Positions 1 through 37,164 of a stretch of DNA of 37,164 bases are shown here, piece by piece. Source of the stretch: a virus. Both the position numbers and the translations under genes were made by a program. A model generated the notes under the pieces. The model searched no databases. It had not been told where the DNA came from and was given only the letters and a program-made list of their open reading frames with translations. Numbering within the stretch: the first letter of the stretch is position 1; each line of letters begins with the position of its first letter. The DNA lies in IMG/VR virus record IMGVR_UViG_3300027996_000086, positions 1 to 37,164 of that record; one strand, 5' to 3'.

Positions 1-458
1 ATTGGATGATAGTAAGGCTGAGTATTAGAGATAAGTTTAAGGGAAAGAAGGTAGGAATATTCTATAAGTTTAAGCAAGAACTAAAGGTACTTATGGCTGT
101 GTACGGTACAGACTATTTAACTACAGACTTGAGTGTCTTCAACGACACTGACAAGTCTATTGCTCTACAGATTGTATCGGGAAGAGAGGGTATATCTCTA
201 CGTCAGGCAGATGCTCTTGTGTACTACAACATTGACTTTAGTGCCACATCGTATTGGCAGAGCCGAGACCGTATGACAACAAAGGATAGGCTAAAGAGTG
301 ATGTATATTGGGTGTTCTCAAATGGTGGTATAGAACGGGAGATATACAAAGCTGTTTCCAAAAAGAAGGACTACACGATTCGGCACTTCAAAAGAGATTT
401 GCTATCTTTGGTAGGTGACGGAACAGCAGATACAGACGAAAAGAATAAAAGAACTTGA
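1..458 (+). CDS. SNF2-family DNA helicase, C-terminal part (5' end outside window)
   Basis: The reading frame is open to the left edge, so this is the last 150 or so residues of a larger gene. It carries the second RecA-like lobe of an SF2/SNF2 helicase. The segment SGREGISLRQADALVYYN matches motif V, and the following FSATSYWQSRDR matches motif VI with its Q-x-x-R arginine finger. Family knowledge: such ATPases remodel DNA or protein-DNA complexes, and SNF2 helicases are common in the replication module of crAss-like phages. It overlaps the next gene by 44 bases, so the two are probably co-transcribed. A perfect copy of the dispersed hairpin repeat lies inside it at 132-149 and encodes SVFNDT just before motif V. 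The ATG at position 6 is unlikely to be the true start. Confidence 0.85.
   Translation, partial: WMIVRLSIRDKFKGKKVGIFYKFKQELKVLMAVYGTDYLTTDLSVFNDTDKSIALQIVSGREGISLRQADALVYYNIDFSATSYWQSRDRMTTKDRLKSDVYWVFSNGGIEREIYKAVSKKKDYTIRHFKRDLLSLVGDGTADTDEKNKRT
132..149 (+). repeat. dispersed hairpin repeat, copy 1
   Basis: AGTGTCTTCAACGACACT, arms of 6 bp, in frame in the helicase gene (SVFNDT). It is identical to the sense strand of copy 6 (17611-17628). Confidence 0.85.
403..410 (+). promoter_or_regulatory. possible -7 box before the VRR-NUC gene
   Basis: TATCTTTG lies within helicase codons (L-S-L), four bases before the GTG start of the nuclease gene. It matches the four intergenic boxes exactly, but a chance match in coding DNA cannot be excluded. 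Confidence 0.3.
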
Positions 459-654
459 GGAGCAGGGCTATTATGTTATCAAGCTTATCAAGACAAACAA
501 GAACGGAATCCCCGATATAATTGCTATACCCCCTAACTCTGATGTTATATTCAGCGAGGTCAAAAGACCGGGGGGAAAGCTGTCTAAACTGCAGGAGTAC
601 AGACTAAAAGAGCTAAAGGACTATGGTAGAACAGAAGTATACAAAGGTGAGTAA
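415..654 (+). CDS. VRR-NUC domain nuclease
   Basis: A 79-residue protein that is essentially only a VRR-NUC domain, the PD-(D/E)XK-fold nuclease found in phages and in FAN1. Visible motifs are GIPDIIAI with the catalytic Asp, FSEVKRPGGKLS with the E-x-K pair, and a following Q-x-x-Y (LQEYRL). Family members cleave branched or flapped DNA; the exact substrate here is unknown. The start is GTG at 415, since there is no ATG in the frame before the core. It overlaps the helicase gene by 44 bases. A TATCTTTG box ends only four bases before the GTG, so the gene may also be made from its own leaderless transcript. Confidence 0.85.
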   Translation: MTEQQIQTKRIKELEEQGYYVIKLIKTNKNGIPDIIAIPPNSDVIFSEVKRPGGKLSKLQEYRLKELKDYGRTEVYKGE

Positions 655-997
655 TATTCAGTATGACATTGACGATTGGTTTATAGAACAGATAAGAGAA
701 CTGCCAATGGATTATGCTTTTGATATCGCAACACAGATTACAGAACAGGTAGAGGAACTGCCTAAAAGAAATGGATGGACTCAGTACGTTGCGGGAGTGT
801 CACACGCTCTTGAAGAACCGTTCTTCTTTAGACTTGAATACCTAAACCAAGAGGATGAGCTGTGCTTATTCCTCGGAGTAGAGGAGGTAGATATAGATAC
901 CTTCTTAGATTATATAATTGAAAATCAAACACTAAAATTTAATAAAGATGAGAAAGAATCACGAATTAGAAAGACAACTGATACAAATAGTAAATGA
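623..997 (+). CDS. hypothetical acidic protein
   Basis: A 124-residue protein I do not recognise. It is acidic, with aromatic and hydrophobic residues scattered (DDWFIEQIRELP near the start, EEPFFFRLEYL in the middle) and a charged tail. No signal peptide, membrane segment or catalytic motif is visible. The ATG at 623 overlaps the nuclease gene by 32 bases. A GTG at 647 would shorten the overlap to 8 bases and is an equally good start. It lies inside the nuclease/replication operon, which suggests an accessory role in DNA metabolism, but this is only context. Confidence 0.6.
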   Translation: MVEQKYTKVSNIQYDIDDWFIEQIRELPMDYAFDIATQITEQVEELPKRNGWTQYVAGVSHALEEPFFFRLEYLNQEDELCLFLGVEEVDIDTFLDYIIENQTLKFNKDEKESRIRKTTDTNSK

Positions 998-1382
998 AGA
1001 ATTTAATATAGATATAAAAACGATAAGCAGAAAGAGGGAGATAGCAGACGGAAGGGCTGTGTTCTATAAAATATTGTTTGACAATGAATACTCCTTAACA
1101 TTGATAGGAGAAGTTATTAATAAGCATCACTCAACGGTTATTAATGGACTGAAAGTATTTGATACAGTGTTGCGTAGAAACAAGTATTATATCGTAGGAT
1201 ACAATAAGTGTAAGGAAAAGTTTGAAGAGATTTGTAATAACTTTATACCCGAAGAGGAACCTCTTATGACTAATGAAGATATTCTAACAAACAAATTAAA
1301 TATGCTTGAAGAACAGGTAACCTCTTTGAAATCTCAAATAAAATATTTACATTCGTTAAATCGTATATCAAATGAAGTATAA
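948..1382 (+). CDS. stand-alone DnaA domain IV-like DNA-binding protein
   Basis: A 144-residue protein. Residues about 5-75 match the C-terminal DNA-binding domain of DnaA. The segment IGEVINKHHSTVINGL (residues 53-68) fits the DnaA signature, including the H-S-T-V that contacts the DnaA box, and RKREIADGRAVFYKIL supplies the preceding helix. The AAA+ ATPase part of DnaA is absent. The last 40 residues look like a coiled coil (NKLNMLEEQVTSLKSQIKYL), which could give dimers. In DnaA this domain binds 9-bp boxes at origins, so a phage version could mark an origin, repress host initiation or act as a regulator. The ATG at 948 overlaps the previous gene by 50 bases. Confidence 0.75.
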   Translation: MRKNHELERQLIQIVNEEFNIDIKTISRKREIADGRAVFYKILFDNEYSLTLIGEVINKHHSTVINGLKVFDTVLRRNKYYIVGYNKCKEKFEEICNNFIPEEEPLMTNEDILTNKLNMLEEQVTSLKSQIKYLHSLNRISNEV

Positions 1383-1605
1383 TATAAACGACATAGAAAA
1401 GATTGTTGACTTCACAACTTGGAGCAGCAAAGAAAAACAGGATGAACTTCTAAGGATAGATGCTTCACTTCATTGTAACCTTGGTACTGACTCTACAAAA
1501 TCAGATAGAGAATTTGTACGTAAAGAATCAAAGAAAATATACAGGTCATTACAAAAAGTAAACCCACTTCTTAGTGAGTCTTTATTAAACGCTATAGATA
1601 AATAA
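1372..1605 (+). CDS. hypothetical protein
   Basis: A 77-residue protein not recognised. It is charged and predicted helical, with no membrane segment or cysteine cluster. Its ATG lies inside the end of the DnaA-like gene (11-base overlap), a sign of translational coupling. The next gene starts two bases after its stop. Confidence 0.55.
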   Translation: MKYNINDIEKIVDFTTWSSKEKQDELLRIDASLHCNLGTDSTKSDREFVRKESKKIYRSLQKVNPLLSESLLNAIDK

Positions 1606-1606
1606 A

Positions 1607-1795
1607 ATGCCAATACCGTCCATTGAGAACGAGAGACTTACCCATATCAATCATATTATGGATGAGCTTCACGACCATATGGATAGCGTATATGAGCATC
1701 TTGTGGACAGGGAGATATTCGAATGTGTAAAAGAGCTTGACGGCTGTTTGTTAAAAATAAAAGACTTAAAACAATCATTAGAAGATGGACTCTAA
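1607..1795 (+). CDS. hypothetical small helical protein
   Basis: A 62-residue, acidic, histidine-rich protein that looks wholly helical (THINHIMDELHDHMDSVYEHL, then KELDGCLLKIKDLKQSL). It could form a short coiled coil or bind a metal through the spaced His residues, but no known family is evident. It overlaps the following HNH gene by 11 bases within the same operon. Confidence 0.5.
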   Translation: MPIPSIENERLTHINHIMDELHDHMDSVYEHLVDREIFECVKELDGCLLKIKDLKQSLEDGL

Positions 1796-2174: not shown

Positions 2175-2178
2175 ATAT

Positions 2179-2861: not shown

Positions 2862-2877
2862 TGTCGCTGACGACACT
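2860..2877. terminator. hairpin shared by two convergent operons (repeat copy 2)
   Basis: The sequence AGTGTCGCTGACGACACT forms a 7-bp stem with a 4-base loop. It fills the 14-base gap between the plus- and minus-strand genes. The TAG stop of each gene overlaps the outer two bases of one arm. There is no long T-run on either side, so classical Rho-independent termination is not certain. It could act as a bidirectional terminator, RNA end protector or processing site. It is a variant of the dispersed repeat. Confidence 0.6.
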
Positions 2878-5800
2878 ATCTAATCCTGCGGAACTTTCTT
2901 CTTTTCATTTCTGATTCTCTTTTCTTCTTCAGCTTATCTCTATCCTTGGTTCTTTTTTCCGATTGTTTTTTTATCTCCTTTTCACGCTTATCTCTCTCTC
3001 CGAACTGTTTTTTGTAAGCATTCGGGTTGTACTCCTTCAAGTCTCTTTCATACTGTTTCTGTTCTGTCTTGGTTCGTTTCCCCTTTGATTCCTTTGCTTT
3101 CTTCTCTGCTTCTGTTTCTCCACTCGGCGAGTATGATTTGCTGATACCCAAAGCATCGAAGGTAGCTTGGTCAAACTCCGCCCCATCAGTTCCGAACATA
3201 TTGTACAGCCCTATGAACGGGTCCGTCTGCATCCCTAATACTACTTCAACTATAGGCTTTAGACTTCCTGCCCATCCATACTTCTCTATTTCTTTATTTA
3301 CTTTATAGTATATGCTTAAGATAGGATTGGTAACATCACCGGCAAATTTATTCCCGCCAAACTCTCTCTCTGCAAAACTTCCTAATAATGGAATCTGATA
3401 TAAAAGATTAAGACCCATCATTGCCTCTTTCATTTTCTTAAGAGCCTCATCCCTGTCGTCGTCGTCTCCCTTTATAAACTTAGCGAGGTTGGCTGTCCCC
3501 GCGAACATAACATTCGCTATCCCAAGGTTAAGAGCAAATGCTCTAACATCTTTTCTCTTTGGTGCAGCCTTGGCAGCCTCTTTTCTTTTTTGATTCGCCT
3601 CCTTCATCTTGCCCTGTGCCGCAAGCATAGATGCCTCTGCAGATAGCCTTAAAGACATTGCCGAATCTCTTCTCATATTCTTGGTTGACTGCATTACCCT
3701 GTTCATCTGTAGGAACAATGTGCTTCCGAACATTGTGAAGGAGCGAATAAGTGCGTTGTTATCAAATTGAAGAGGTATTTTATCTGCAGCTCTACGCGAC
3801 TGCTGTGTGGCGTTGTAATTGTTGAAAGCCTCTACAGCCTCCGTCTTACTCATACCGTTCTTTATGTTACGCTTGTGGTTAATCATATACCCCATCACAC
3901 CTAAGATATCACCTAACACTGTTGGTGCTGCTGCGGATGTTCTGATTAATGCTCTTGCTCTTTTAAACCTTGATGACTCTTTGTTTACATTCTTAAAAGT
4001 TTTAGAACCCGATTCCAATCCGTATACATCACCCTCAATACCCTGCTCAACCCTTCTCTTGAATGTGGCTGACATCTCCATAGCTTGGTGTATCGGTCCA
4101 TTCTTACCCACTAAGTCCAATGGCAGTGATAATATTGTAGTCGCCGCGTCAAACATAAACCCAAGCGTATCCATTCCGGGGATATATCTTTTTCCTTTAC
4201 CCCTGTAGTTGTAATCTTCAAAAGCTTGTACGAATGATGATGCCTGCTTTAATATTTGTATCGTCTTAAAGGATAATGCGAATGATGTGAACTGAGTCTG
4301 AAGTTTTGTCAGCAGTTTGTTTTTATTCCCGCCTTCTAAAGAAGCAGGATTTATAGCTTGATTAATTGCTATCTTCATAGCTCTTAAAATCTTAGACTCT
4401 TGAAGTAATAGACCTACTTCCGGTATGCTAAAGAAATCATTCATCTCACGCACTCCCTCGGCATAAGCCATAAACTTTTCCATTGTCTGCGTGTGATTGT
4501 CAAGAGTGCTGAAGAAGTCTGCTCCTACTAAGTCTATGTCTGATTTGTAGTTCTCACGTTGTTTGAATGAATCTGCTGTCTCTGCGTTAAATATACCGCT
4601 GAAGTCACCGTTCTCTAAAATTCCACCCGTTTCTTTACTGCTAATTGTTTTTGTTGGAAAATAGTTTTCTATGAACCCTAAGTTAACATTGTTCACCTGT
4701 GCATACACACCATTGACCTGCTCGTAGTATTCGTTACTCAAGAAGCTGACGACACCCTCAACGAACTTTACCACATCCGGCTCAAGTATTTCCTTTATTT
4801 CCTGTAACTGTTCTTTCCCTATGCCTTGGTTCTCAAGCTTAGCTCTCTGAACATCGTTAAGACTAAGCGCATATATACGCATCAGTTGGTCAGCATTAAG
4901 CTTCTGTTCGGATACTGTTTGTTTTCCGTCTTTGTTTACAACAGTCTTTATTCTATGTATCCCTGTATACAATCTTCTTTTAACTCCCTTGATACCCCCA
5001 ACAATGCCCACTGATTCTGCAATTTGGTCAAGCTTCTTACGTGTCGCGATAGTCCCTCGGTTGTTGTTCTCATCCATTCTGTTGAGTGACTTATAGGTGT
5101 TGTCGGTGAATATAGATTTCCCTTCTGTTATTCTATCCGCTATGTTTGCTAATGTTTCAACATTACTAATACTGTTTTTAGCACTTTGTATCCAATCTTT
5201 TATCGTGTCAAATTTAAAGCTTGATTTCACCCACTCAAATATTGCCTCCGGGATTTTTCTTTCTCTTATTAATGCGCGAACCTCATCCTTCTTAGAGTTT
5301 AGTTCATTATTATTTAAGGGTTTCCCATTCTCGTCAAACAATTCGGGATTTGTTTCCTGTATCTGACTCCTTACTTTCTTAGCCTTATCTGCTCTGAGCT
5401 GTCTCCTAACAGTGTTCTCAGCCTTGAGCTGTGCGATTGATTCACTGCTCATATCCTTCAGTGTATTGAGCAGGTCATTGGTCTCCTCAAGGGTCATCCC
5501 CTGTATAGGAGCGAAGTTGTCAAGAGCCTGCACCTCAGCAAGAAGCTTCTGTTGTTTGGTAGTAAGAATCTTATCCGCTGTCAGAGGGTTCTCTTCCTGT
5601 ATAAGAAGAGCCTCATTAATCTGTTGCTTTACCTCCGGGTCGTTTAGCCTGTCTCGTAGCTTCTGAATCTTCTCCTCTGCTTCTTCAATCCGAGTCTGCG
5701 TGTTGCTGATAGACTTAGCCTCTGCTTTTGTGCTACGCTTCTTACCCTCAAGCTCCTGTATTTTAGTCGCTTTCTCTTCTGCTGATAGCCTTGTGTTCTC

Positions 5801-8800
5801 GTTTACCTTATCTATCTTATTTTCTATGTCGAATAATCTTTGGTCAATCTTAGACTGAAGTGCCTGCATACCCGCTCGTGCTCGTGCAAGGTCAACGATA
5901 TCTTCTACTATAGGAAGAACAGCTTTAAAGTATAGCTGTGTTGCTGCGTTAACCCCTGCACCTCTACGCTTTCCGCTCCTTGTTATCTTTACCTTTGATT
6001 TCTTTTTAAGTATGTCAAGGATACCCGTTACGGTCTCCGCTTTCATACGTGCTCGTGCGTTTTGTATTTCAATCTCTACCTTCTCAATCTTAGATTCAAA
6101 GTTCTCTACGGTTGAATCCACAAGAAGCTTGTTGATTCTTTGTATAGCACCACGCGTATACGGAGTATCCGGTAGGCTCTGTCTGATGTAGTTCTTCAGT
6201 CTTATCTGAGCTTCTTTTAGGTTTTTCTTTCCAATCTTTCTTTGCTTGAGTGTCTCTCTAATCTTAGCCATCTCCGCCTGTACTCTTCTATTGGAACGGA
6301 TAGGTCCCTGTGCATCAAAGTCTCTGTATAGCGATTGGTCATACCCCAATAGAATCTCTTGTTGTGTCTGTTCGGGTTGTTTCTTAAATATTGGATTAGC
6401 CTTTAATGTTTCCTGTGCTTTCTGTCTTATCTGAGAGAAAGTTTTGTTACGTGCTCTTACTCCCGACACTCCGCCTCTTGGTCCCATCACTGCAAACTGA
6501 CGAACAGTTTCTTGCGTCTCATCAAATAGCTGACGTGCCTCGTCAATACCACCCTCTACTTTCTCAAATGCTCGTGGCATCGGACGTGTTTCGTTTACGA
6601 TATCAACCGTAAGAGCTTCATTAATATTACCTGTTGAGAAGCCTCTATCTTTTAGCACCTCTCTGATTGCGGCATCCGTGAAGCCGAGTCTTCTACCCCT
6701 GTCTATTACATCAAATATAGGAGATGTTCTACTAAATAAAACCTCCGGGTTCTTCATCTTCTTTTGCTGAACCTCTGTAATCTTTAGGTCCTTACCGCTG
6801 AATACATCAGCCAATGCTGTGCCTAAAAACTTATCAAGGGTTAAGTTCTGAATTTCTTTAGCTGTTAAGTCCTTAGATAGCGTTGGGAATTGGTCCTTTA
6901 TGTATGACCACATTCCAAGTAACCACTCTTTAAACTGCGCGTTTAGAGATGCGTTTGCTATGGTTTCTCCTTTGTTTCCTATGAGTATAGCCATAGCCTC
7001 TTTTGCTGCGGCTACCCTGTCTCCATCAAACTTCTTTAGCTGCTTCTGAAACTCTTCGGTCTGCTCAACAAGAGACACACCCTTAGCGTAAATCTCTTTA
7101 CCCTTCGTTGTTGTCTGCAAGTAGTTCTGCCACACGTGACCCATCTCGTGAATCTGAGTGTTGAACAAATCAGATTTGTTGTTGTGAACCTCCGGATTTA
7201 CGTACACGTCTCCGTCTACAGTGACACCATAAACAACATCACCATCCTTCATAACAGCCTGTACCCTATCCGAGTTCATAACAGCCTCAAACGTAGCTTG
7301 GTCTGTGGATATAGCTGTGTTTGGGAATGCTAAGTTCATAAAGTTAGCAAGCTTATTGGCATCACTGACGCTCTCAACTGATGTGATAGCACCAACCATA
7401 CCCTTCTGAGGTATGCCCTTGCCCACGTTAAGAGCGTTTTCAATAGCCTTATCTTCGGATATACTCTCGCCTACTTCGCCTTCTTTCTGTGCAGCCAAAG
7501 CCTTTTCCTCTGCCTTCACAGCCTTGCCTATTACAGCAGAAAAAGTTTCTCCGTATGTATCAAGAATGTTCTGCGGATTCTCAAGAACCCCTATCGTCTT
7601 ACCCTTGATACCACCTTTATAGTTCGGGTGCTCTATGCTCACCACGCCGCCTGCTTCAGCCCAACTCTTTCCGTCTTTCTTTGCAACCTCGACTCCCTGC
7701 AGTGAGATGATACTCTTCTGAGGTACGTTCTTAGTGGATGGCTCGGTGATAAGGTCTGTGATAACCGCTAAGTTTAATAGCTGTTCTGAATTTGCTATAC
7801 CCTCTGCTAATAATTGAGCTGTGATTGGGCTCTTAGAATTAGGGGCTGATACTCTTTTTTTCTGTCCCGGCATATTAGGACCACCAACCGTCATCATCTT
7901 TATCAGAGCTGTCCGTGCGGGCAATGTCATCTGCCTAAGATTATCGGGTGTCAATAGTTCTTTAAAATTGGTTATGTTATTGTTGCTTAACATTCCTATT
8001 ATATTCTTCACACCTTTTCTTTCTGCATCTGTGCTATACTTAGGCTGTCTTCTTTTTATATCCTCCTTGAACGCCGCGAATGCTTCCTGCTTATTCTTCT
8101 CCGGTATCTGTGATATGTTGTCCAAGAACACTCTGAACACCGCCTCGTTTGATAGCATTGAGCCCTCACTCATTTTTACTACGGGCATCGGAACGAGACC
8201 CGCTAACTTTGGATTCGCTTCCCAAAACCTGTGAAACAGTTCCTTATTATTCTCGTAAGCCCTTCGTGCTTTATTCAAAAACTCTCCTGCTTTCTTCTCG
8301 TCTATACTCGCCCAAGCTAAGTTCTCATTCCCCTCAATCCCTGTGAAACCAACACCACCCTGTAGATTATCTATCGTTGTTCCTGTGTTAGGATTCACAA
8401 CGCTACCTATAGTAAGTTGGTCTGAGATATTAAACACAACAGGTATGCCATTGATAACCTCAAGGTTCTTTATTCTCGGCATCGGTCTCGATGCTCTTTC
8501 ATCAAGGCTGTTTATGTCAGTCTTCTCCTCTGTTGTCTTTGTTTTTTCTGCAAGACTAAAGTCAGCATTAGGAGACTTCTCAGCAAGCTCATTTATCTTC
8601 TCTGTTATAACCTCTTCCTCTGTGGTAGTCTCTTTGGTAGCCTCTCTTTCATCAGTCCTAAAATCAACGCCCGAATCAAGTTTCTTTTTTAGCTTAGCGA
8701 TTCTTGACTTAGCTTTCCTTGCCTCTCTTTTCGCTTCTGACAAATCAAATTGATAGTTCTCTATGGCGGCATCCCTATCGTTCATAAAGCCATCTCTTTC

Positions 8801-11800
8801 AGCTTCGAGGTCATCAAGCTTATCTTGTTTCTTTTGTTTAGATAAGGTTTTATTTTTTCTAACCTTAGCCTTCTCTTCTTTTATTCTTTGAGCCTCTTCT
8901 TTATAGTTATCCTTTTCGTTTTGAATTTCTTCTTGAATGTTTTCAAGGTTCATTTCTAAATCGTCAAGCTCATTGTTTTCAATATCTGCTATTTCAGCCT
9001 CAATCTCTTCTCTCTTGGATTGCGTTTCCTCAGCTACAGGTGAAGCTTCCTCGGTGACTTGTTCATCAATCTGCTCTTGGGTAAGCATAACATCTCCCTC
9101 ATCTATAGGACCCTCTTCGGTAGTCACCTCTTCCTCAACCACTGTTTCAGTCGGTGTCGTTGGCGACACTTCCTCCTGCTGTGTTCCAAACTCCTCGTCA
9201 ACTATTCTACCGAGTTCCTCGGTCTCTGCCTTGAGTGTCGTTGGCGACACTTCCTCTGTTGCTACCGTCTCTTGGGTTGTAGGTTTTTTATTCTTTAACT
9301 GTTTGGTAATTTCTTTTGCTTTGCTATTTGTATCGGTAAAGTCACTAATGAATTTAGCATCTCTAACAACAGTAACATCCTGCTTTACTTGTGGTCCATC
9401 ATATATGTTTTTAAAAACAACCGCATCATAACCATTTTCAAAAGCATCTTGAATAATTTTATTTTTATTTTTGCCTTCTGAAGTAGCTTGCCCTTCAAAA
9501 TCTACTTCTAAAACATTATCAGTATTTAATGTAGCTGAATAAATGGTTGGTTGAATTCCTTTTAATTTACCTAAACCTACAGAGGTAAGTAAATTACCCA
9601 ATGGGTCCATTGTTTCCTTAGAATAATACTCAGCTATATAGGGGTCGTTGCTAAAAAATATACCTTGAGCCTGTCCTGCATCTGCACTTGAACCCACCTT
9701 TGACATATCAAAACTCTGAAACTTACGAGGTGAACCTGTAAACAATAATCTTTTACCATTTTTATTATATACGGGTGACTTTAAAGAACCATCATCTAAA
9801 GCTTCCTCTACCACATTAATATTTTCAACCGTCTCCTCCGGCATCACCTCTTGTGTTGTTGTGGTCTCCTCTACTTGAGGCTGATTGTCAAGCCCAAACA
9901 TCTTAACAGCCTCTTCTTTAATCTGCTCTTCTGTTACTTCTGTCTTCTTTGCATACTTAACCTTAGACCCTCTGAAAGTCTTGACTCCAAACCTTCTGAG
10001 TCTCTGACCAAGAGTGACCCTCTGTTTTTTTCTTAAATTATTTTCTGCTTTCTTTAGGTATTCCTGTTGGTCTGTATCTGATAGGTCCTCAAATGTTGGT
10101 TGCTTTTCTTCTACCTGTTCCGTTTCAATGGTCTCAGATTGTTCGGTTTCGCTTGGTACTTCCCGTACTTCGCCTTCCACTTCTTCCACAACTCCGGCTT
10201 GTTTATCTGCAGGTACTGCTCCTGTTTCTTGCTCTTGAATGGCATCTACTTTTGTCTTTAAAAATTCACTTACTTCCTCATCGTTGTCAACTCTTGCTCT
10301 TGTCTTAAGAATCTTTCTCTTAGACATCTTCTCTATACGCTTCATAAACTCCTCCTTGGTGTAGGAGATATTGTTTATTGTATACTTACCAACATCACTA
10401 CGAACATCGGTATTTGTTGTTTGGTCAAGACCAATGATGTTTAGGTTGGTCTCTGTTCCTGATTCTTTAAGATTACCCGTCTCAGCAATCTCAGAAATCT
10501 CTTTATTTATCTCTGTTACCTTTTGAGAGAATGCAGACTTCCTGTTTGCTGTGCTCGTAAGCTCTTTCTTAGCAGCCATAAGCTCCATTACACGAGACTG
10601 AGTCTTCTTATTGGACTTTGTGTCCTTGTTTATGTCTAAGACGTTCTTAGCGTCTCTTTTAAGACCTAAGTTCTCACGTATTCTTTGAGTCTGTTCTGTG
10701 TTAATCTTGCCTAACCTTTCCATATTATCAGCCCAAGAAAGAATACGCTCCTCAGAAACATTCTCGCTCATCATACCGTCTATAGTAGCAAGCTTGTTTG
10801 CAAGGTCTACATTATTGGTGTTACGAGCATCCTTGTACAGGTTGATTGCCATAGCACCTGTGTTGTTCCCAAATCCACCCATAGCCTCAGCGAATATTTC
10901 TTTTCCTGATACCTGTTCTCCGGCGTTTACCTGTGCAAGAAACTCACCTGTCGCCTCTCCTAAAGGGTCAACAACCGCACGCTCACCCAACATCGCGCTT
11001 ACTCTTGCGGTCTTAGAAGATAAACCACCTACCTTAAATACTCTACCTGCAAGACCTGCTGTTACATAATTCATAACAGCAATGGGCACACCTCTTTCGT
11101 GACCCTTCTTGCTTCCCTCTTTCCAAACCTCCTCGTCCTTTAATGCTTTTACAACATCGTTAGGGTCCATCATATTGTACCCCTTCTCTCTTGCTACATC
11201 AAGTATGGAGTTGGTATACTCCATAGCGTATCCCGTTGCTGCAAATCCTGTTTTAAATCCTTGACCTGCGCCAAGCACGGCTCCTGCAGATGTACCATAC
11301 CCCGGAACTATAAAAGTACCTACACCCGCACCTGTTGCCGCACCTGTTGCTGTTGTTGTTCCAATAATCTTTGTTCCATATGGTAGCATCTGAGATAAGC
11401 TTCCCGCAACGAATGTCGCTGTTAATTCAAATGGGTCATCCTTGAAAGCATCCCAACCCTCTCTAAAATCACGGGCACTGTTCCAACGGTACTCTGCTCT
11501 TCCCGGAGCGCGAGACTGTGCCGCTTCAAGGTTCTCCACTATAGTCTTTGCTGCTTCTTCTACTGAGGCGTTATCATCTATATCTGTAATCCCTAATGAT
11601 ATGTAAAGAATCTCCTGTGCCGCCTGCCCATTATCGAAACCATTTCTCCAACTGCTATAAACTGCCTTCCAATTTTCATCGAATGCACTACGCACGTTCT
11701 TGTCAAACTTACCATCAAACCAAGTATTAGCCAATTCGTATTGTGTTGCCGCATACTGTGACTCTGTTCTTGCAACGTCATAGTTAGTGAGCAGGTTGTT

Positions 11801-26545: not shown

Positions 26546-26556
26546 TTTTTCTTGTG

Positions 26557-26590: not shown

Positions 26591-27724
26591 TTATAATCTT
26601 TTTATTTTTCTAATCTTTAAACCTCTACCATTTTCGGGGTTCAAAGACTTAACCTGCATTCCTCCCTTTGAAGTAACTTCGGGTGCTTTACGTTCAGACA
26701 TATTAATGTTTTTCATCTTCTTGGTAACACCCTCCGTACCTGCAGATAAACCCTGCTCATAAAAGAACTTGGCATATCTTTCGGGATTCGAAGCTATAGC
26801 TAAAGCTTTATGAAACCCTGCAGCATCATTAATCAAACCGTTGTCATCAACGAACTTCTTCATAAAGTTATTCGTATCTAAGTTTCGTTTTTTTAAGTCG
26901 TCCACATTGTTTGGAGTATAAGTCAAAACTTGGTCTTCTCCTATCTTGAAATCAAAACCTTTGAAATCTGAGAACACCTCATCTGTCTTTTCCACGAACC
27001 ATTCGCGTCTCCGCTTCTGTTCCTCTTCGTAGCTCTTTGCTTTTTTTATATATTGGTTGTATGCCTCACGCTCTTCTTTTTCACTTTCAGATTGTTCAAC
27101 CGTACTTGACTCAAGGGGCCGCTTATACATCTCTTTCTGCTCATTGAAAAACTTTTTGGCTCGTCCAATCGCTTTTTTCTTTGCTAACTTTATTTTCTTA
27201 ATATCTGTTTCATCGTCAACATCTACATCATACTTGAAGTCATCTAATAAAACATCTACATCGTCAGAATCTAATCCCTCTTCTGTAGAAAGAAAATAAT
27301 TCTCTAGCAAACTTTTTTCGTCCATAGAATCGAAGTCTTGGTTTAATTTAACATAGTCTTCAATTCCACGTCCTGTTTTTTTCTTGTACTCAAAGTAAGC
27401 TGCAACATCTTCGGGTAGCTCTTCATTTGATTCTTTCTCATCAAACAACTGACCCACAGAGTCTATCTCCTTATCGTACCTATTCTTAATATATGAAAGA
27501 ACGTCTTCCTCTTTTAACTCTGAGGACTGAGTTTGTGTTTCGCCTTGCGGCTGTATTGTTTCTTGCTCTTGTGGGGCGGTGGCACTCTCAGTGCTTGTAT
27601 CCACTCCTTCCAAGTTAATTTCACTTCCTTTATTAGCTACCTCTGCTTTTGCTAATAATTCTTCTTCTACTTCCGCACGAGACTTCTGCTCTCCACCGGA
27701 AACTTCTTTTACTTTAATGTTCAT
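26591..27724 (-). CDS. scaffolding protein (inferred)
   Basis: A 377-residue, highly acidic, largely helical protein between portal and capsid genes, the normal place of a scaffold. The first 60 residues are a Gln/Thr/Glu linker (TAPQEQETIQPQGETQTQSS). The middle has acidic and coiled stretches (DVDVLLDDFKYDVDVDDETD, REAYNQYIKKAKSYEEEQKR). The C-terminus is short and basic (GRGLKIRKIKRL), like the capsid-binding tails of known scaffolds. No catalytic motif is visible. A TAACTTTG box lies 15 bases before the ATG. The only GGCC tetranucleotide that I found in the window falls in this gene (27117-27120). Confidence 0.75.
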   Translation of the reverse strand: MNIKVKEVSGGEQKSRAEVEEELLAKAEVANKGSEINLEGVDTSTESATAPQEQETIQPQGETQTQSSELKEEDVLSYIKNRYDKEIDSVGQLFDEKESNEELPEDVAAYFEYKKKTGRGIEDYVKLNQDFDSMDEKSLLENYFLSTEEGLDSDDVDVLLDDFKYDVDVDDETDIKKIKLAKKKAIGRAKKFFNEQKEMYKRPLESSTVEQSESEKEEREAYNQYIKKAKSYEEEQKRRREWFVEKTDEVFSDFKGFDFKIGEDQVLTYTPNNVDDLKKRNLDTNNFMKKFVDDNGLINDAAGFHKALAIASNPERYAKFFYEQGLSAGTEGVTKKMKNINMSERKAPEVTSKGGMQVKSLNPENGRGLKIRKIKRL

Positions 27725-27739
27725 TTAATTATATTTTTA

Positions 27740-27747: not shown

Positions 27748-27774
27748 ATAATAAATTTATTACATTTTATTTAA

Positions 27775-30210
27775 CTATCTAGGCTCAAACTCTGCCATAT
27801 CAAAACCATCAAGACTATCTTCGTTAGATTCAAATGTAACAGGAGGAAGGTTATTTTTCCTTTGGTCTATAAGCTTAGACTGCTCACTGTTCTGTTGACT
27901 TATACGGTCTGACTTTGCGGTCTCTCTTTGATTCTCTCTACTCTTTAGTGCATTCTCACTTATGTCTCTAAGCTGCATATTGAAATCAAACTCAGTCTGC
28001 ATAAGCTCTCTCTTAAGCATTGCTTCATTCTTAAGCTTCTCAATCTCAAATGCTACCTCTGCTTGCTTAAGCTGCATTTTTCCCTGCAACTCTGCTTGCT
28101 GTTTCTGCATAGCAGTCTGAGCTGCCATCTGCTGTGATTGCATATTAAGCTGAGCCTGATGCTCATTCATTTCTTTTTTCTGCTTCTGTTCTTTTTCTTG
28201 CTTTTGAACTCTCTTTACTTTTAACAACTGATTTGCAAGTTTTATATTCTTGAGTTCTCTTATGTCAATAGCATCCTCAAGATTTATATCCTGCTTCTGT
28301 AATGCCATCTGTATGTTTTGTTCAAGCTTTGCTTGCTCTTCTTCGTCCGGACTTACATCAATAAATATACCGAAGTCATATATGTATAGGTCTGATATGT
28401 CTCCGAGTATACTCACGTTATACTTTCCTATTTTATTTACAAAATCGTCTTTAAAGTCTGCATACTCTAATATGTCAGCAACTCTATATGTCAATGCTTC
28501 AGATAGGCTTCTAAATAAATAAAGGCTCCCGTCAAGTATGTGTCTCGTTGCTGTGTTGGAGTTTAGTGCTGCAAGTTTCTGTAAGCCAACTAATGAATTA
28601 GGGTCCGGAGTAGATGCGTCTCTAGCTTCATTGAGACCTGTAACCGTCCTAATCATATTTAGGTAATGGTTATAGTTTGTTAAAAGCATCTGTGTCTTAC
28701 TAGCACCCGACGACGACTGAAGCTCCTTGATAGGAACCTTACCTTGATTATAATCTCCGTCTTGAGTATAGCTTCTACCTATAACACTACCCGTTTGAAA
28801 ATACATACGTAAAGCATCTTCGGGGTTATATGCCTGCCCTGTTCCTAAGTCAACCTCGTTTAACCCATCTGCATCTATATAAACACCGTCGGGTACAACT
28901 CTTGATATTACTTGTTGAAGCTTAAGGTGTGTCATCTGAATTAAATCAGCAAAAGGAATCATCCTCCTAACCAAAGATTCAATAACTCCCTTGTACATTC
29001 TTGGAGCCACAGCTACGTAATTAGGAAGTGCGTGTTGACTTGAAGACTTTGGTCTTACCATATTCTGAGCTAACTCCCACTTAAGGATAATGTTAGTACC
29101 CATAACCATAACACCATCATACCACACATCAATAGTCTTCTCAATCTTTTCAAACCTACCCTCTTCCATCATATCTACAGGAGGATTAAATTGGTCGTCT
29201 TTTTCTACTACTTTACTACCCCCGGTTTCAAGAATTTTTTTCTTGTAAACCATCTTCTTTGTGGTCTTGTAGTTAAAGTACATAACGGTTACGGTGTCTC
29301 TATAAAATATATCGTTCTCGTAATACTGAGCAACGTTATAATAGTTGTACCAATTTTGACTGTACTTGCCTATTTCTTCTAAATCTTCTTTTGTTAATGA
29401 AGGGTCTATCTTTAGTAGTTCTACAATAGGAAGAGTCTTTATTTCTCCCCAATAAAAACAATCTTTAAAGTGAGGGTCTTCAGTATAGCTATAGACCACG
29501 TTCGCAGGGTCAACATATTCAACCGCAACTCCCGAACCTTTTAAGAAGTTATGCTTAGCTATACTAACGCCTATTGTAGCTAAATCATAGTCACATCTTT
29601 TTCTTACATCTTGATAATGATTCTCTTCAAATATAGTGTTTATAGCCTCTTCTTCTGCTATCTCAATAGCAGGCTTATAGTTAAGCTGCATATATAAAGA
29701 AAGCTCTTCATCTGTATTAGGAAGTTCATCGGGTTCTATAATAAAAGGATTGGCTCCTGTTTTGTCTTTTATAATATTAAGAGTTTCTTTGGCAACCATC
29801 TGCCCCTCTATCATATCTTGATACTTGCTTCTCTTTGATTGTGACAATGCGTCTTGAGAATAAGCCTTTACCTTAAACAATCTATCAGACATCCCATTAA
29901 CAACGATGTCAACAAACTTAGGTATAACAGGCACAGGTGTCCAATCTAAGTTTAGATAAGATAAGTCACCATCAATAGCAAGCTCGTTCTTGTATTTAGC
30001 AACAGACTGTTCGCCTCGTGCATATAATCTTAGCTTGTTAAAGTCTCTCCATTGACTATAAAATCTGCATTGTTGCCCATCTTTCTTAAACCATTCGTAC
30101 TGAATTGCTTGTCCAATCTGTAATCCAAATTCTTCGGTAGCTTTCTCGGCATCCGATACGAATTGACTTGGGAAACCTGCAGATGAAATATTTATTTTTA
30201 CGTCTTTCAT
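27775..30210 (-). CDS. portal protein
   Basis: An 811-residue protein that starts by ATGA overlap with the end of TerL. Several segments match from memory crAss-like portals: QLNYKPAIEIAEEEAIN, VRKRCDYDLATIGVSIAKH, GVAVEYVDPANVVYS and DPHFKDCFYWGEIK. The C-terminal 170 residues are a Gln-rich coiled coil (QMALQKQDINLEDAID, then NEHQAQLNMQSQQMAAQTAM), as expected for a crown or barrel. The portal dodecamer sits at one capsid vertex, binds TerL for packaging and the ring proteins below. The length is large but normal for this group. Confidence 0.9.
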   Translation of the reverse strand: MKDVKINISSAGFPSQFVSDAEKATEEFGLQIGQAIQYEWFKKDGQQCRFYSQWRDFNKLRLYARGEQSVAKYKNELAIDGDLSYLNLDWTPVPVIPKFVDIVVNGMSDRLFKVKAYSQDALSQSKRSKYQDMIEGQMVAKETLNIIKDKTGANPFIIEPDELPNTDEELSLYMQLNYKPAIEIAEEEAINTIFEENHYQDVRKRCDYDLATIGVSIAKHNFLKGSGVAVEYVDPANVVYSYTEDPHFKDCFYWGEIKTLPIVELLKIDPSLTKEDLEEIGKYSQNWYNYYNVAQYYENDIFYRDTVTVMYFNYKTTKKMVYKKKILETGGSKVVEKDDQFNPPVDMMEEGRFEKIEKTIDVWYDGVMVMGTNIILKWELAQNMVRPKSSSQHALPNYVAVAPRMYKGVIESLVRRMIPFADLIQMTHLKLQQVISRVVPDGVYIDADGLNEVDLGTGQAYNPEDALRMYFQTGSVIGRSYTQDGDYNQGKVPIKELQSSSGASKTQMLLTNYNHYLNMIRTVTGLNEARDASTPDPNSLVGLQKLAALNSNTATRHILDGSLYLFRSLSEALTYRVADILEYADFKDDFVNKIGKYNVSILGDISDLYIYDFGIFIDVSPDEEEQAKLEQNIQMALQKQDINLEDAIDIRELKNIKLANQLLKVKRVQKQEKEQKQKKEMNEHQAQLNMQSQQMAAQTAMQKQQAELQGKMQLKQAEVAFEIEKLKNEAMLKRELMQTEFDFNMQLRDISENALKSRENQRETAKSDRISQQNSEQSKLIDQRKNNLPPVTFESNEDSLDGFDMAEFEPR

Positions 30211-32453
30211 CTGATTATTTCACTTAATGTTCCTGTGTTACTATACCTTGCAAAGTTAACTTTTATTTTTGACTCTTTTTTCTGTGGAGTGTATAGATGT
30301 TTCTGACACGCCATTATTGCAAGTCCCGAACTTATAGAAGCATCATACTTAGTTCTGTTGTTTATATCAAACTTTGCCCAATCTTCCAATGTTCTAACAA
30401 ATGGCATTGTACCCATAGCATCATTATCCCTAAAAGTTCCGTCCATATCCATACCCACGTACTTCTCTATGTATGACTCAATAGCAGAGGCGTGAGCCTG
30501 CTTTACATCCTCACTTGTGTTAGGTATACCTCCGAGTTCTTTTTCAGTCTTAGAGAGCTTCGTATAAGTCTTGTCGGGTCTGTTCATACAGAACCCCCTA
30601 TATCCTCTATTCTTAAAGTGATATAGTAGTCTTGGTTTGTTGTTCTCTATAAGTATAGGCATTCCATAAAATATACAAGCCATTAGAACTTCTTCATAAA
30701 AAATCTCTGCAGTCTGAGGTCTTGCTACATACTCAAGAAAAAACTCATTAGAAGGAGCATCTTCCATACTAAACTTAGTTAATCCGTGAAGCGCACCATT
30801 TGAACCGCCGCCTCCAACTACTCCTGATATATCATAAGAGTCACAACCAAATGCCCCCATATGTTCATTCCCCGGATACTTGACTCCGTTCTTAACAGAA
30901 AATCTATTGTTTAACCCCTTCCTCGGTGTCCAAGACACTTTAAATCTACCGCGATTATCGGGGCTAAATATAACATCAGTATCTTTTATACCGTCTCTCC
31001 AATGAAAAGAACCCCTTGTTATGTGATGCTCCTTTATCATTGAATCATTATAGTCTATCTGTTGATATATCTTCGTAAGGTTAAATAAAGATTCTTTACT
31101 TTCATCCCTAAATGCGTGAGACTCAGTTCGTGGAAACTGACGATAAAACTCATTTAGTGCATCGGGGTCGTTCTTTAAAGACTCTACCTCTGCTTCCCAA
31201 TAGTCTATCGCTCCATTTGAAATCATTTCATTATCAACGCCTAACACTTCTACCGGAGGTTTTCTAAAAACAGGCATACCGTACCTATCAATAAATCCTT
31301 CCATATTCCATTCCATAGGGATAAACAACGAATACATTCCGCTCTTCGTTTGACCGTTAGCATTTCGTGTTGAAAGCCTTGAGTCTTCGTAAAGTTTTTT
31401 AAAGTTTCCACCCCCTTTTGCCAAAGCATTTGATGTAGAGCCCATCATACACTTACCTATAATCTTACTACCTAAACGTAAACACGTTTTTGTTACTCGC
31501 CAATTATTAAGTATGTTGTTTGGTTTAATCCATTTTCCACTTTCATCGTGTATCAGTAGTAACAATTTTTCACCATCATAGCTGTTGTCATCTGTGTTCT
31601 TCCAATCTATTGTTGTGTCGAGTCCTTGCATCTCATTCTCAGACACCTCGTACATATTCTTCTTTGTAATCTTGGATGCAGGAATCCTAAACGCTAGTTC
31701 TGTTTTAGGCTTGTCCATACCATCTTGTATAGGCTTAAAGAAAAAAGGATAGTTGTTTACTACAGGCACAACCTTATCTGTAAACATCTTCTTGGCATCT
31801 GCGCCTGTTTTGGATAAGATTCCTATCCTTGAATCTTTAGATATAGTACCTATGTTTGCACACTCCTCTGAACCCATATAAGAAAATCCGGAACGTCTTA
31901 TCTTTAAATAGTCCATACCAAAGCTTCTACTGTCAGCTTTACAGGCTTCCCAAAATAAATATAGTATTCTGTTAGCTTCTCTATAGTCGGGGTATCCAAT
32001 ATCAATCTTGGTCCACTGAAGATACATATAGTGACCTCCGGTTATGTAAGTTTTTTTTCCGTTATTTATAAACCAACACCCCTCTTCTCTTCTATTGAAC
32101 TCTTCCTCTATGTAATCAACCCATCTGTTCTTAAAGGTTGCGTGCTGTTCATTCCACTGAAATATAGATTGTATTTTTTTAAGGTCTTTTGGTATATCTA
32201 TTCTCTCCCAATACTGTTCTGATTTTTTTGAGTGTCGTTGAGGACACTCTTTAGGAGGTCTAGGTAAAGCAATAGCAAGACCCTGCACTTCAACTATCTC
32301 ACCTATCTCACCTGTCTTTGATATAACAACTACGTCATACTTCGAATCATACCCATACCTCCAACTGCCACTCTTGTTTTTGTTGGTCAAAACAGTCTTT
32401 GGGATGTAATCCTCTAAGACCCTGTATAGATTATCCTGCGTGTCTTTCTGCAA
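30207..32453 (-). CDS. terL: terminase large subunit
   Basis: A 748-residue packaging motor. Walker B is LLLLIHDE with D303-E304, followed by a C-motif-like MMGSTSN. The usual Walker A Gly-Lys-Ser/Thr is not seen; KIRRSGFSYMGS (about residues 183-194) stands in its place, as I recall for crAss-like TerL. The nuclease half shows FGCDSYDISG with D538, PILIENN and EDVKQAHASAIESYI, matching the RNase H-like acidic sites. The start is taken as TTG at 32453, because no ATG or GTG suits; it overlaps the previous gene by 23 bases. A hairpin repeat at 32230-32249 lies in frame and encodes ECPQRHS near residue 70, outside the motor motifs. Confidence 0.9.
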   Translation of the reverse strand: MQKDTQDNLYRVLEDYIPKTVLTNKNKSGSWRYGYDSKYDVVVISKTGEIGEIVEVQGLAIALPRPPKECPQRHSKKSEQYWERIDIPKDLKKIQSIFQWNEQHATFKNRWVDYIEEEFNRREEGCWFINNGKKTYITGGHYMYLQWTKIDIGYPDYREANRILYLFWEACKADSRSFGMDYLKIRRSGFSYMGSEECANIGTISKDSRIGILSKTGADAKKMFTDKVVPVVNNYPFFFKPIQDGMDKPKTELAFRIPASKITKKNMYEVSENEMQGLDTTIDWKNTDDNSYDGEKLLLLIHDESGKWIKPNNILNNWRVTKTCLRLGSKIIGKCMMGSTSNALAKGGGNFKKLYEDSRLSTRNANGQTKSGMYSLFIPMEWNMEGFIDRYGMPVFRKPPVEVLGVDNEMISNGAIDYWEAEVESLKNDPDALNEFYRQFPRTESHAFRDESKESLFNLTKIYQQIDYNDSMIKEHHITRGSFHWRDGIKDTDVIFSPDNRGRFKVSWTPRKGLNNRFSVKNGVKYPGNEHMGAFGCDSYDISGVVGGGGSNGALHGLTKFSMEDAPSNEFFLEYVARPQTAEIFYEEVLMACIFYGMPILIENNKPRLLYHFKNRGYRGFCMNRPDKTYTKLSKTEKELGGIPNTSEDVKQAHASAIESYIEKYVGMDMDGTFRDNDAMGTMPFVRTLEDWAKFDINNRTKYDASISSGLAIMACQKHLYTPQKKESKIKVNFARYSNTGTLSEIIR
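30251..30258 (-). promoter_or_regulatory. possible -7 box inside the end of terL
   Basis: Reverse strand TAACTTTG fits TAnnTTTG and lies 40 bases before the portal ATG, within coding sequence (codons for V-N-F-A). It could add expression of the portal gene, but a chance match in coding DNA is also likely. Confidence 0.3.
30926..30938. repeat. weak relative of the hairpin repeat in terL
   Basis: GTGTC-CAA-GACAC with a 5-bp stem and 3-base loop, in codons for VSWTP. It has the same arms as the family but lacks the conserved loop, so membership is uncertain. Confidence 0.35.
32230..32249 (-). repeat. dispersed hairpin repeat, copy 8
   Basis: GAGTGTCGTTGAGGACACTC, a 7-bp stem, in frame in terL (ECPQRHS, the third reading frame used by the family). 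The 20 bases are identical to the terminator behind the capsid gene. Confidence 0.85.
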
Positions 32454-33496: not shown

Positions 33497-33514
33497 TTTT
33501 ATTAAATTTAATTT

Positions 33515-34549: not shown

Positions 34550-34551
34550 CT

Positions 34552-34779: not shown

Positions 34780-34800
34780 TGTATTAGATTTTATTTGCTA

Positions 34801-34808
34801 CAAAGATA
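34801..34808 (-). promoter_or_regulatory. Bacteroidota-type -7 box (TATCTTTG)
   Basis: Reverse strand TATCTTTG lies 21 bases before the ATG of the coiled-coil gene, in the gap after the holin gene. No -33 box is clear. It probably starts the unit coiled coil-fibre-packaging genes. Confidence 0.75.
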
Positions 34809-34812
34809 GGAA

Positions 34813-36238: not shown

Positions 36239-36241
36239 AAT

Positions 36242-36505
36242 CTATTGGAGTTCATAGAGACGGTCATCCATTATTTGAAGTTGTCCCTTTATTTCTGTGA
36301 TTTCCTCCTTAATGAACTGTAGTTCATTTGAGGTTTTTATTACCGCCTCCTTAACCTCTCGGTCTTGAACGGGTAGTTGTTTAGCTTCTTCGATTTGAGA
36401 CTGAAGGGAGAAGTACATACTTACAAAAGTTGTGACTAGACCCACAATAAAAATAAAATTCTTTGGGGTTAATTTAATCTTTGTGCTCTCACTAATCGTC
36501 TCCAT
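36242..36505 (-). CDS. single-span membrane protein of the lysis cassette
   Basis: An 87-residue protein with one membrane segment near the N-terminus (residues about 16-34, NFIFIVGLVTTFVSMYFS) and a C-terminal coiled coil (LQFIKEEITEIKGQLQIMDD). This shape fits an inner-membrane spanin or a small holin-like protein. It lies three bases before the amidase gene. The family is not recognised. Confidence 0.6.
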   Translation of the reverse strand: METISESTKIKLTPKNFIFIVGLVTTFVSMYFSLQSQIEEAKQLPVQDREVKEAVIKTSNELQFIKEEITEIKGQLQIMDDRLYELQ

Positions 36506-36535
36506 CGCTAACTATTTCATAATTTATTTTAACAT

Positions 36536-36550
36536 CCACCGATGAGGTGG
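36536..36550. other. small hairpin after the virion surface gene
   Basis: CCACC-GATGA-GGTGG forms a 5-bp stem beginning 9 bases after the stop of the 153-aa gene. On the minus strand it is followed by an AT-rich stretch but no T-run, so it is at best a weak terminator or RNA end. Confidence 0.35.
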
Positions 36551-36559
36551 AATAGAATC

Positions 36560-37021
36560 TTACCACAGTGCAACAATATTTGTAGGGCTTCCTGTTGCCC
36601 AAACCTTTAACACTTGCACAGGCATAAAGCTTCCTGCAAGAACACCGTTAAATGTGACAACATCACCTCCTGCGGTTGTTACTTTAATGTTTCCCGCTGC
36701 TCCAACATAAAGAACACATCCTAAATTAGCATTTTGTTTTCTGAATATTTTATATGATGTTGTTGTTGGAACTGCTACAGTAACACTTAACTGAGTTGCA
36801 CTATCTACTGCCGTGACTGTAGCAGCAACATTTCCTGCATAAACAATATCTCCAATATTTATTCTTTTATTAATAAAATCTCCCGAAGAGTCTATAAGCT
36901 TTAATGCAGCAGCAGAAGTTGTTGTGCTGCTTACTGAAAGAACTGCAGGATTAGGAATGTTTATACTATCACTTGGTATTACTTCTAAGGCTGTTGAAGC
37001 CTGTAATTTTTGATAAGCCAT
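36560..37021 (-). CDS. virion surface / decoration-type protein
   Basis: A 153-residue, Val/Thr/Ala-rich beta protein. The end (GCVLYVGAAGNIKVTTAGGD, then FMPVQVLKVWATGSP and IVALW) strongly resembles from memory a small virion protein widely found in tailed phages of marine and other bacteria. Residues about 27-95 hold the extra domain (LKLIDSSGDFINKRINIGDI, ATVTAVDSATQLSVT) also seen in the ring protein and the capsid protein. It has its own TATCTTTG promoter box. Confidence 0.65.
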   Translation of the reverse strand: MAYQKLQASTALEVIPSDSINIPNPAVLSVSSTTTSAAALKLIDSSGDFINKRINIGDIVYAGNVAATVTAVDSATQLSVTVAVPTTTSYKIFRKQNANLGCVLYVGAAGNIKVTTAGGDVVTFNGVLAGSFMPVQVLKVWATGSPTNIVALW

Positions 37022-37042
37022 CTTTGTCTTTTTGTATACCTA

Positions 37043-37050
37043 CAAAGATA
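37043..37050 (-). promoter_or_regulatory. Bacteroidota-type -7 box (TATCTTTG)
   Basis: Reverse strand TATCTTTG lies 21 bases before the ATG of the 153-aa gene. The upstream side is AT-rich, with no clear -33 TTTG. It probably drives this gene and perhaps the lysis genes. Confidence 0.75.
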
Positions 37051-37080
37051 GCATTATTTTTTTATATGTATAAACACCTA

Positions 37081-37164
37081 CTACTCTTCGACAGGTATAG
37101 GCTCTGACCATTCAGCACTTGCCATAAGCGTTAAGGCTTGTTCGTGTGTCAAAGTTTGTAAAGG
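37081..37164 (-). CDS. C-terminal end of an unknown protein (cut by window edge)
   Basis: The reverse strand is open from the right edge to a TAG at 37081-37083, giving at least 27 residues ending LTLMASAEWSEPIPVEE. It has no recognised family. The end-to-gap spacing and the promoter that follows agree with a real gene that ends here. Confidence 0.5.
   Translation of the reverse strand, partial: PLQTLTHEQALTLMASAEWSEPIPVEE

Follow-up and report, generated by a model that had tools for sequence, protein, structure and literature searches.

Phages are known to avoid restriction sites and to encode nucleases that degrade host DNA: T4 and T7 both carry nucleases that destroy the DNA of their host, T4 itself being shielded by its modified cytosine. 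A nicking endonuclease, NixI, is carried by the PLE satellites of the Vibrio cholerae phage ICP1 (PMC12409358). Here we analyse a stretch of viral DNA of 37,164 nucleotides (IMG/VR record IMGVR_UViG_3300027996_000086, positions 1 to 37,164; hereafter the window, always at its full length), from which GATC, CATG and CTGG/CCAG are missing, together with a gene at positions 2442-2861 encoding a 139-residue protein of predicted PD-(D/E)xK nuclease fold. We consider it likely that the phage makes a nuclease specific for CTGG, directed against the DNA of its host or of rivals, and that it is itself spared because it has no such site. This proposal is built on the purge of the word, the selective nature of that purge, its tie to the gene and to an EVKGR motif in the protein, and the predicted fold.

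Missing words in the window and the nuclease gene

A preliminary description of this DNA, made by eye, had reported no GATC, CATG, CTGG or CCAG and a single GGCC, where on the order of a hundred or more of the first two and tens of GGCC were predicted. Counting bore this out: under a maximal-order Markov model of the 37,164 bases, 118.4 GATC, 105.4 CATG and 177.5 CCAG plus CTGG were expected and none is present, while GGCC occurs once against 28.0 expected. Shuffles that preserve the proteins and codon usage (n = 200, coding bases only) gave means of 176.8 for CTGG/CCAG (standard deviation 11.1), 100.1 for GATC, 58.2 for CATG and 22.8 for GGCC, so the check that the description had proposed, against both kinds of expectation, returned zero or near-zero counts for the four words. 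Its remarks on codons hold for the whole window: His ahead of a codon starting with G is always CAC (27/27), Asp ahead of a codon starting with C is always GAC (84/84), and a CTG codon is followed by A (19), C (9) or T (12) and never by G. C precedes none of the 93 Trp TGG codons. The tetramers it listed as present are indeed found (CCTG 202, CCGG 57, AGCT 183, GTAC 102 and GCGC 22). It was not quite right in expecting the effect for these four words only, as CTAG is low (15 against 97.6 expected), TCGA is at half its expectation (27 against 54), and the non-palindromic 5-mer CCTGA/TCAGG is partially avoided (12 against 76).

1-37164, no strand: stretch without GATC, CATG, CTGG and CCAG (0 each), depleted in CTAG (counts and shuffles)
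27117-27120, no strand: sole GGCC of the window (word count)
2442-2861, + strand: 139-residue PD-(D/E)xK nuclease (PDDEXK_14), proposed to be CTGG-specific (PF24579)
2481-2483, + strand: putative catalytic E14 (conservation)
2553-2555, + strand: putative catalytic D38 (conservation)
2598-2612, + strand: EVKGR motif, residues 53-57, with putative catalytic E53 and K55 (conservation)

The nuclease belongs to the family PF24579 (PDDEXK_14), scoring 43.8 bits against a cut-off of 25; two homologues, those of L096 (23.3) and MW202828 (21.3), fall just under it. Among 55 sequences D38 and E53 are invariant and E14 and K55 conserved in at least 90%, and together these four residues, by analogy, fit a putative catalytic set. 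In some homologues EVKGR is replaced (EVV, EVS, ALV and others). An AlphaFold2 model built from the 55 sequences (pLDDT 89.7, pTM 0.84) shows the core fold, acidic residues and ExK motif of the PD-(D/E)xK superfamily, to which we assign the protein. In VIA-align its best matches are Hjc resolvases (Z 10.3, root mean square deviation 2.5 over 105 residues), followed at lower Z by chains of a SPARDA complex, NhoI, DpnI, I-Ssp6803I and PvuII, matches with Z below 8 being possibly unspecific. A Foldseek search with the model gave no match at E ≤ 0.001, and a sequence search against solved structures none below E 0.76. Homologues were found in 0 of 395 Bacteroidia genomes, in a search run without a positive control.

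Association of the nuclease gene with CTGG absence in related phages

The window is a member of a group of Flavobacteriia-type podoviruses, and its host is likely of Flavobacteriia type. The closest named record is MW202828.1, a circular podovirus genome of 60,850 bases from Manatee Spring (terminase identity 76%), and the next nearest are Flavobacterium elemo phages, Maribacter phage Panino and Cellulophaga phages. Relatives were collected in two locus searches, each taking 80 of 599 confirmed loci, and we call a word purged or avoided when it stands at no more than 10% of its expectation. The group survey, the counts in other phage groups and the deduplicated set described below cover records of at least 8 kb. 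Among 97 related records, after removal of duplicates known by contig, GATC is purged in 59, CCAG/CTGG in 49, CATG in 28, CTAG in 18, GGCC in 16 and CGCG in 13; rarer cases are GCGC (9), CCGG (7), CCCG (5), CCGC (1) and ACGT (1). The observed/expected ratio of CTGG is bimodal: 49 records fall in the lowest tenth, 43 reach 0.5 or more, and 5 lie between 0.1 and 0.4. CTGG is wholly absent from the near-full G007, G008, G009 and G019 (49-60 kb; 199-294 expected) and is purged in the metagenome genome MW202828 (4 against 293). As a whole word it is purged in none of five named isolates (elemoE, Panino, phi40:1, phi18:3 and Calle_1; first 50 kb of each), nor in any record of the phi18:3-like (0/6), Polaribacter P12002L-like (0/19), P-SSP7-like (0/33) and HTVC010P-like (0/55) groups.

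Words are thus purged in an on/off manner within the group, and by selection. Of 1,128 CTGG sites found in non-purging relatives over six aligned genes, the window keeps none, while five control words in the same alignment are retained at 21-53% of their sites (the records are related, and these counts are not independent). Single synonymous changes removed CTGG at position 1 (C to T 272, C to G 6, C to A 3), position 2 (T to A 241, T to G 79, T to C 54) and position 3 (14). This loss by several synonymous routes, transitions as well as transversions, argues for selection by sequence-specific nucleases. On the coding strand of minus-strand genes both CTGG (0 against 64 expected) and CCAG (0 against 79) are missing, which makes duplex DNA the target.

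Gene content was compared in 34 full or nearly full related records, 18 purging CTGG and 16 not, which hold 70 gene clusters. The best cluster for CTGG absence is the nuclease, present in 14/18 purgers and 1/16 others (p = 2.8e-5); the second is its upstream neighbour at 2179-2445 (p = 1.1e-3). In the sole non-purging carrier, G017, EVKGR has become EVVGR and CTGG stands at 180 against 296 expected. A bait made from the nuclease alignment alone (patterns KL[DG]xxD[IV]DY[KR] and E[LM]MxY[YF]..., leaving EVKGR out of the patterns) then drew 80 of 258 confirmed loci, the ones nearest to the window protein. All 80 carry E[VI]KGR; CTGG is purged in 79 and stands at 0.13 of its expectation in the last, with no site at all in 69 and a total of 31 against 5,547 expected. 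Other words purged in these loci are GATC (72), CATG (32), CTAG (26) and GGCC (21).

Because a sample drawn with the nuclease is biased, a neighbour bait (A3), the nearby helicase with its first row from a nuclease-free phage, was used, and 80 of at least 540 confirmed loci were read. CTGG is purged in 26/27 loci with an intact EVKGR-type nuclease, in 2/11 with a motif-less homologue (CTGG being ordinary in the other 9), in 2/32 without a homologue although at least 4.5 kb past the helicase was read, and in 1/10 where the slot is not covered. Fisher's test of intact against other covered loci gives 6e-14; Fisher p values overstate independence here, as the records share ancestry. A tree analysis was added for this reason: over the 138 branches of the helicase tree there are 9 nuclease changes and 8 avoidance changes, 5 of them shared in the same direction (p = 1.7e-5 under random placement).

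Deduplication kept 207 of 292 records, with 85 near-duplicates dropped and many carriers coming from the nuclease bait. All 86 intact carriers (E[VIL]KGR) purge CTGG, with 35 sites in 1.93 Mb against 8,468 expected, as do 3 of the 10 cluster members without the motif (G009, L579 and L548), the other 7 having ordinary CTGG. L548 counts as a motif-less homologue here only through linkage with another slot ORF (open reading frame), and as having none in the helicase-bait test. The nuclease cluster is associated with CTGG avoidance at 1.8e-23 and with GATC avoidance at 1.6e-10, and the next-best family for CTGG reaches 4.9e-7 with loose and 1.1e-11 with strict clustering. In this set no other tetramer tracks the nuclease equally: between intact carriers and records without a homologue, GATC is purged in 73/86 against 48/111 and CATG in 31/86 against 23/111. 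The effect is well seen in the pair G033/G032, 79% identical over alignable DNA: with the gene present CTGG stands at 2 against 292 expected, with the slot empty at 236 against 298.

The MW202828 enzyme is 50% identical to that of the window. All four CTGG remaining in that genome are CCTGGG, a context that makes up 79 of 3,110 CTGG in non-purging relatives and of which about 7 would be expected in MW202828. Four of four would arise by chance with p = 4e-7, and the enzyme may spare CCTGGG. No shared context of residual sites was seen in the other listed records.

The gene slot is fixed. The nuclease closes the early module and is convergent with a giant structural gene, whose 3' end bounds the slot on the other side; relatives that lack the nuclease have either nothing there (G032) or other genes. 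The window is a virus record that starts within a helicase gene and is therefore a fragment; it has recognisable members of the terminase, portal, capsid, endolysin and holin families. Its other listed genes are:

3-458, + strand: C-terminal part of a helicase, inside which the window begins, member of the bait family (PHROG 62; Helicase_C under the Pfam cut-off)
948-1382, + strand: protein with a DnaA C-terminal (helix-turn-helix) domain, early module (PF08299)
1785-2174, + strand: HNH endonuclease-like ORF, early module (PHROG 2255, E 1.8e-20)
2179-2445, + strand: 88-residue ORF directly upstream of the nuclease, function unassigned (no Pfam match at E 0.1)
2876-13612, - strand: giant protein of 3578 residues, 3' end adjoining the nuclease slot (ORF; arrangement kept in relatives)
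25115-26545, - strand: virion structural protein, likely major capsid (PHROG 13704)
27775-30210, - strand: portal protein (PHROG 6547)
30207-32453, - strand: terminase large subunit (PHROG 6681)

The giant gene takes up about 29% of the window, and relatives have genes for about 2,400-3,900 residues beside the slot. The homologue of 25115-26545 in Cellulophaga phage Calle_1 is annotated structural protein/major capsid protein. PADLOC, run on 7 proteins, gave no match. In bacterial assemblies, terminase relatives were found at 8 loci, all in metagenome-assembled genomes, 2 of Bacteroidota and 5 of implausible taxa; a phage contig of the group lies inside a 1.05-Mb 'Aenigmatarchaeota chromosome' (L196, CP070801.1) and others (L192, L193 and L198) in an Aliivibrio assembly, likely as binning or assembly errors.

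Explanations of the CTGG purge

We favour the view that the early-module gene codes for a small PD-(D/E)xK nuclease whose most likely action is to cut or nick CTGG sites in double-stranded DNA. From the above we infer cleavage, its specificity and timing, its targets, its benefit to the phage and the direction of the changes. Host DNA, in which a composition like this one gives a site roughly every 200 bases, would be shredded, and possibly the DNA of co-infecting phages too; the phage would be safe from its own enzyme because its genome holds no CTGG, a self-protection that would do without a methylase. Upon loss of the gene or of the catalytic lysine, the pressure would end and CTGG could drift back. 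The asymmetric, non-palindromic site suggests recognition by a monomer. A second pressure, past or present host restriction, would act on GATC, CATG, GGCC and partly CTAG. The preliminary description had ascribed all missing words to sequence-specific defences and suspected a less usual system behind CTGG; selection by sequence-specific nucleases is supported, but for CTGG, where it rightly suspected something unusual, the evidence points to the phage's own nuclease rather than to a host defence.

That the hosts carry a CTGG-specific restriction-modification (R-M) or other system, the nuclease gene merely marking lineages or hosts, seems unlikely to us. It would accord with the purging of CTGG by some records without the gene (29/111), with the absence of GATC that accompanies the same gene, with the purging of 5-mers such as GGATG, GGTGA and CCWGG by relatives, with the identity of CCGG, CGCG and CCNGG to R-M targets of Flavobacterium psychrophilum (PMC11837570), and with the methylation of CCAGG and CCTGG reported for Parabacteroides distasonis. 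It leaves unexplained, however, why CTGG is purged in 86/86 records with the motif against 3/10 without it, and why the two traits change together on the tree. Nor is CTGG purged in any of 113 records of four other phage groups, one of them related to Polaribacter P12002L, and the literature yielded no R-M system of CTGG specificity, REBASE, supplements and most subscription journals lying outside that search. Methylases of the phages themselves, which might let non-avoiders keep CTGG, were also considered and rejected: PF01555 and PF00145 each occur in 1/32 related records, in a search limited to these two families and with the window being a fragment, and their bearer, Cellulophaga phi18:3, purges no tetramer.

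It is highly improbable, in our judgement, that the enzyme serves resolution, recombination or packaging without a short specificity and is tied to CTGG through early-module linkage. Its nearest fold is indeed the Holliday resolvase Hjc, and the neighbouring families associate likewise: CTGG is avoided in 16/16 deduplicated carriers of the 88-residue ORF family and in 34/35 of the HNH-like family, which also avoid GATC in 34/35. But these associations are weaker than that of the nuclease gene, a resolvase gives no motive for purging a word, and homologues without EVKGR occupy the same slot mostly without a CTGG purge. Mutation bias or composition has practically no standing as a cause: C to T accounts for 272/281 single synonymous changes at position 1, as a bias would have it, but position 2 changes are mixed, control words survive, and the zeros are exact against protein- and codon-preserving shuffles, so it was rejected. 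Equally negligible is an mRNA-cutting enzyme selecting against CUGG in transcripts; coding strands do lack CTGG, but CCAG is equally missing there, the absence is strand-symmetric, and the best structural matches of the nuclease are DNA nucleases, so this candidate too was rejected.

Several observations weigh against a CTGG-specific phage nuclease. CTGG is purged in the 29/111 deduplicated records without a homologue mentioned above, the slot being off the contig in an uncounted part of them. In the gene-content comparison, G036 has a metallophosphoesterase in the slot and yet 3 CTGG against 293 expected, the purger G019 has another ORF there, and in the purgers G005 (30.7 kb) and G006 (36.5 kb) the slot is not seen. 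Two homologues without the lysine still avoid CTGG, G009 (= L565, EVSSR) and L579 (EVVSR). Conversely, L560 has an intact gene and 13 CTGG (observed/expected 0.21), all within the first 2.5 kb of 15 kb; it was dropped from the deduplicated set, sharing 76% of sampled 25-mers with L488, where CTGG is 0 against 86 expected. On the tree, 4 branches show a nuclease change only (L565, L579, L603 and L551) and 3 a purge change only (L560 and the ancestors of L603/L578 and L551/L548). GATC is purged in 80/92 carriers of the nuclease cluster (p = 1.6e-10), and the gene may therefore mark a lineage or host range. In phi40:1 and Calle_1, where no homologue was found, CTGG preceded by C or G is absent or nearly so, and the modelled Hjc-like fold would fit a resolvase too.

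Some of these cases have features of their own. Residual CTGG clusters at one end in L560 (13/13 in 1-2537), G045 (6/10 in 38.0-39.9 kb) and L505 (8/10 in 708-2803), as if these segments had been recently acquired or wrongly joined. L578 and L548, purgers without a homologue, have other ORFs in the slot region that resemble PD-(D/E)xK nucleases by eye. In phi40:1 (L086; GCTGG 0/25, CCWGG 2/37) and Calle_1 (L088; GCTGG 1/20, CCWGG 0/28) CTGG overall is at about half of expectation, a pattern that, judged by sequence, is one of a related but narrower specificity.

Other avoided words and comparison with known systems

The avoidance of GATC, CATG and GGCC is at present best read as host restriction, because no phage gene fixes them as the nuclease fixes CTGG. 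In gene scans, some of them on records of at least 10 kb, no family divided carriers from non-carriers for these three as sharply as the nuclease for CTGG: GATC is avoided in 80/92 carriers of the nuclease cluster, 34/35 of the HNH family and 15/15 of another family against a base rate of 128/200, and GGCC in 9/9 and 13/14 carriers of two families, with high base rates. The GATC part is less certain, since this word follows the same gene with exceptions, as counted above in intact carriers and records without a homologue. Avoided words differ even between close relatives, such as the window and G029. F. psychrophilum CSF259-93, according to PMC11837570, has systems for CCGG, CCNGG, GCSGC and CGCG and a GATC methylase that is prevalent in the species and has no known cognate nuclease there; the main text of that paper nowhere mentions CATG, CTGG or CCAG.

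A small ORF family (about 105-135 residues, with PTSDH and KGWKYFFPTDSH motifs) behaves similarly towards CTAG, which is absent from 12/12 deduplicated carriers (L566:10730-11047 and 11 other records) and avoided in 43/195 deduplicated records without the family. Of the 12 carriers, 2 purge CTGG and 3 purge GATC. Its Pfam matches are all sub-threshold, the best being RnlA_toxin_N (E 0.014); it is possibly a second site-purging nuclease of the same design, although its job may differ. Two further slot ORFs look like PD-(D/E)xK nucleases by eye and have no Pfam match, one with 3 carriers (L102:19445-19873, L578:12920-13348 and L603:9354-9752) and one with 5 (for example L548:9042-9479); GATC is missing from all 8, but with so few carriers no word can be assigned to either ORF. 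The EVKGR-less homologues of L554, L555, L556, L561, L571, L611, L617 and G017 go with 0 GATC and ordinary CTGG, which could reflect another specificity or shared ancestry; in L544 and L590, likewise EVKGR-less, GATC is ordinary.

Purged 5-mers were also seen in relatives: GGATG (1 observed/63 expected), GGTGA (1/38) and GTGAC (0/21) in G008 (L096-L098), CCWGG in G017 (0/42) and Panino (0/83), and CCTTC in L192 (0/17). GGATG, GGTGA and CCWGG are known restriction sites, those of FokI, HphI and EcoRII.

More tentatively, and with less confidence than in the CTGG nuclease itself, we suggest that the group carries a changing armoury of small methylase-free nucleases, one 4-base word each, so that its missing words partly record its weapons: CTGG would be that of the EVKGR nuclease, CTAG perhaps that of a second, unrelated family and GATC perhaps that of other slot nucleases. 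If so, genomes purged of the sites would supply the immunity in a restriction system that has no modification. The CTGG nuclease would by itself make such a system, in which the words used across an entire viral genome distinguish self from non-self. A missing word would give a cheap prediction of specificity and a route to new nucleases of 4-base sites, and missing words in phage genomes could no longer be read as host defences alone. Lineages that lack the gene or the lysine, most of which have ordinary CTGG, offer natural experiments that can be followed.

We know of no group of phages that encodes a nuclease for a short word and owes its immunity to the absence of that word, and no published phage nuclease with absent own sites was found in a search that left REBASE and most subscription journals outside. 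The Pfam title of PF24579, which the window protein matches, is 'Phage putative PDDEXK endonuclease', which says nothing of specificity or role; in the present group the protein is linked with a single 4-base word and with the genomic absence of that word. The closest solved fold is that of Hjc resolvases, at only 17% identity. Type II R-M systems with 4-base sites likewise have a short fixed word, a PD-(D/E)xK fold and frequent expected cutting, but here no methylase was found, self-protection would come from the lack of sites, the enzyme is phage-carried and the word is asymmetric. NixI reportedly recognises a longer motif, and the PLE itself is said to be without the sites. It is alike in being a sequence-specific nuclease of a mobile element aimed at other DNA, as PMC12409358 describes it; there a satellite is set against one phage, whereas here a phage group has purged a 4-base word from genomes as large as about 60 kb. 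With the enzymes of T4 and T7 the nuclease would have in common that it is a phage-encoded destroyer of host DNA, but here protection would be by sequence.

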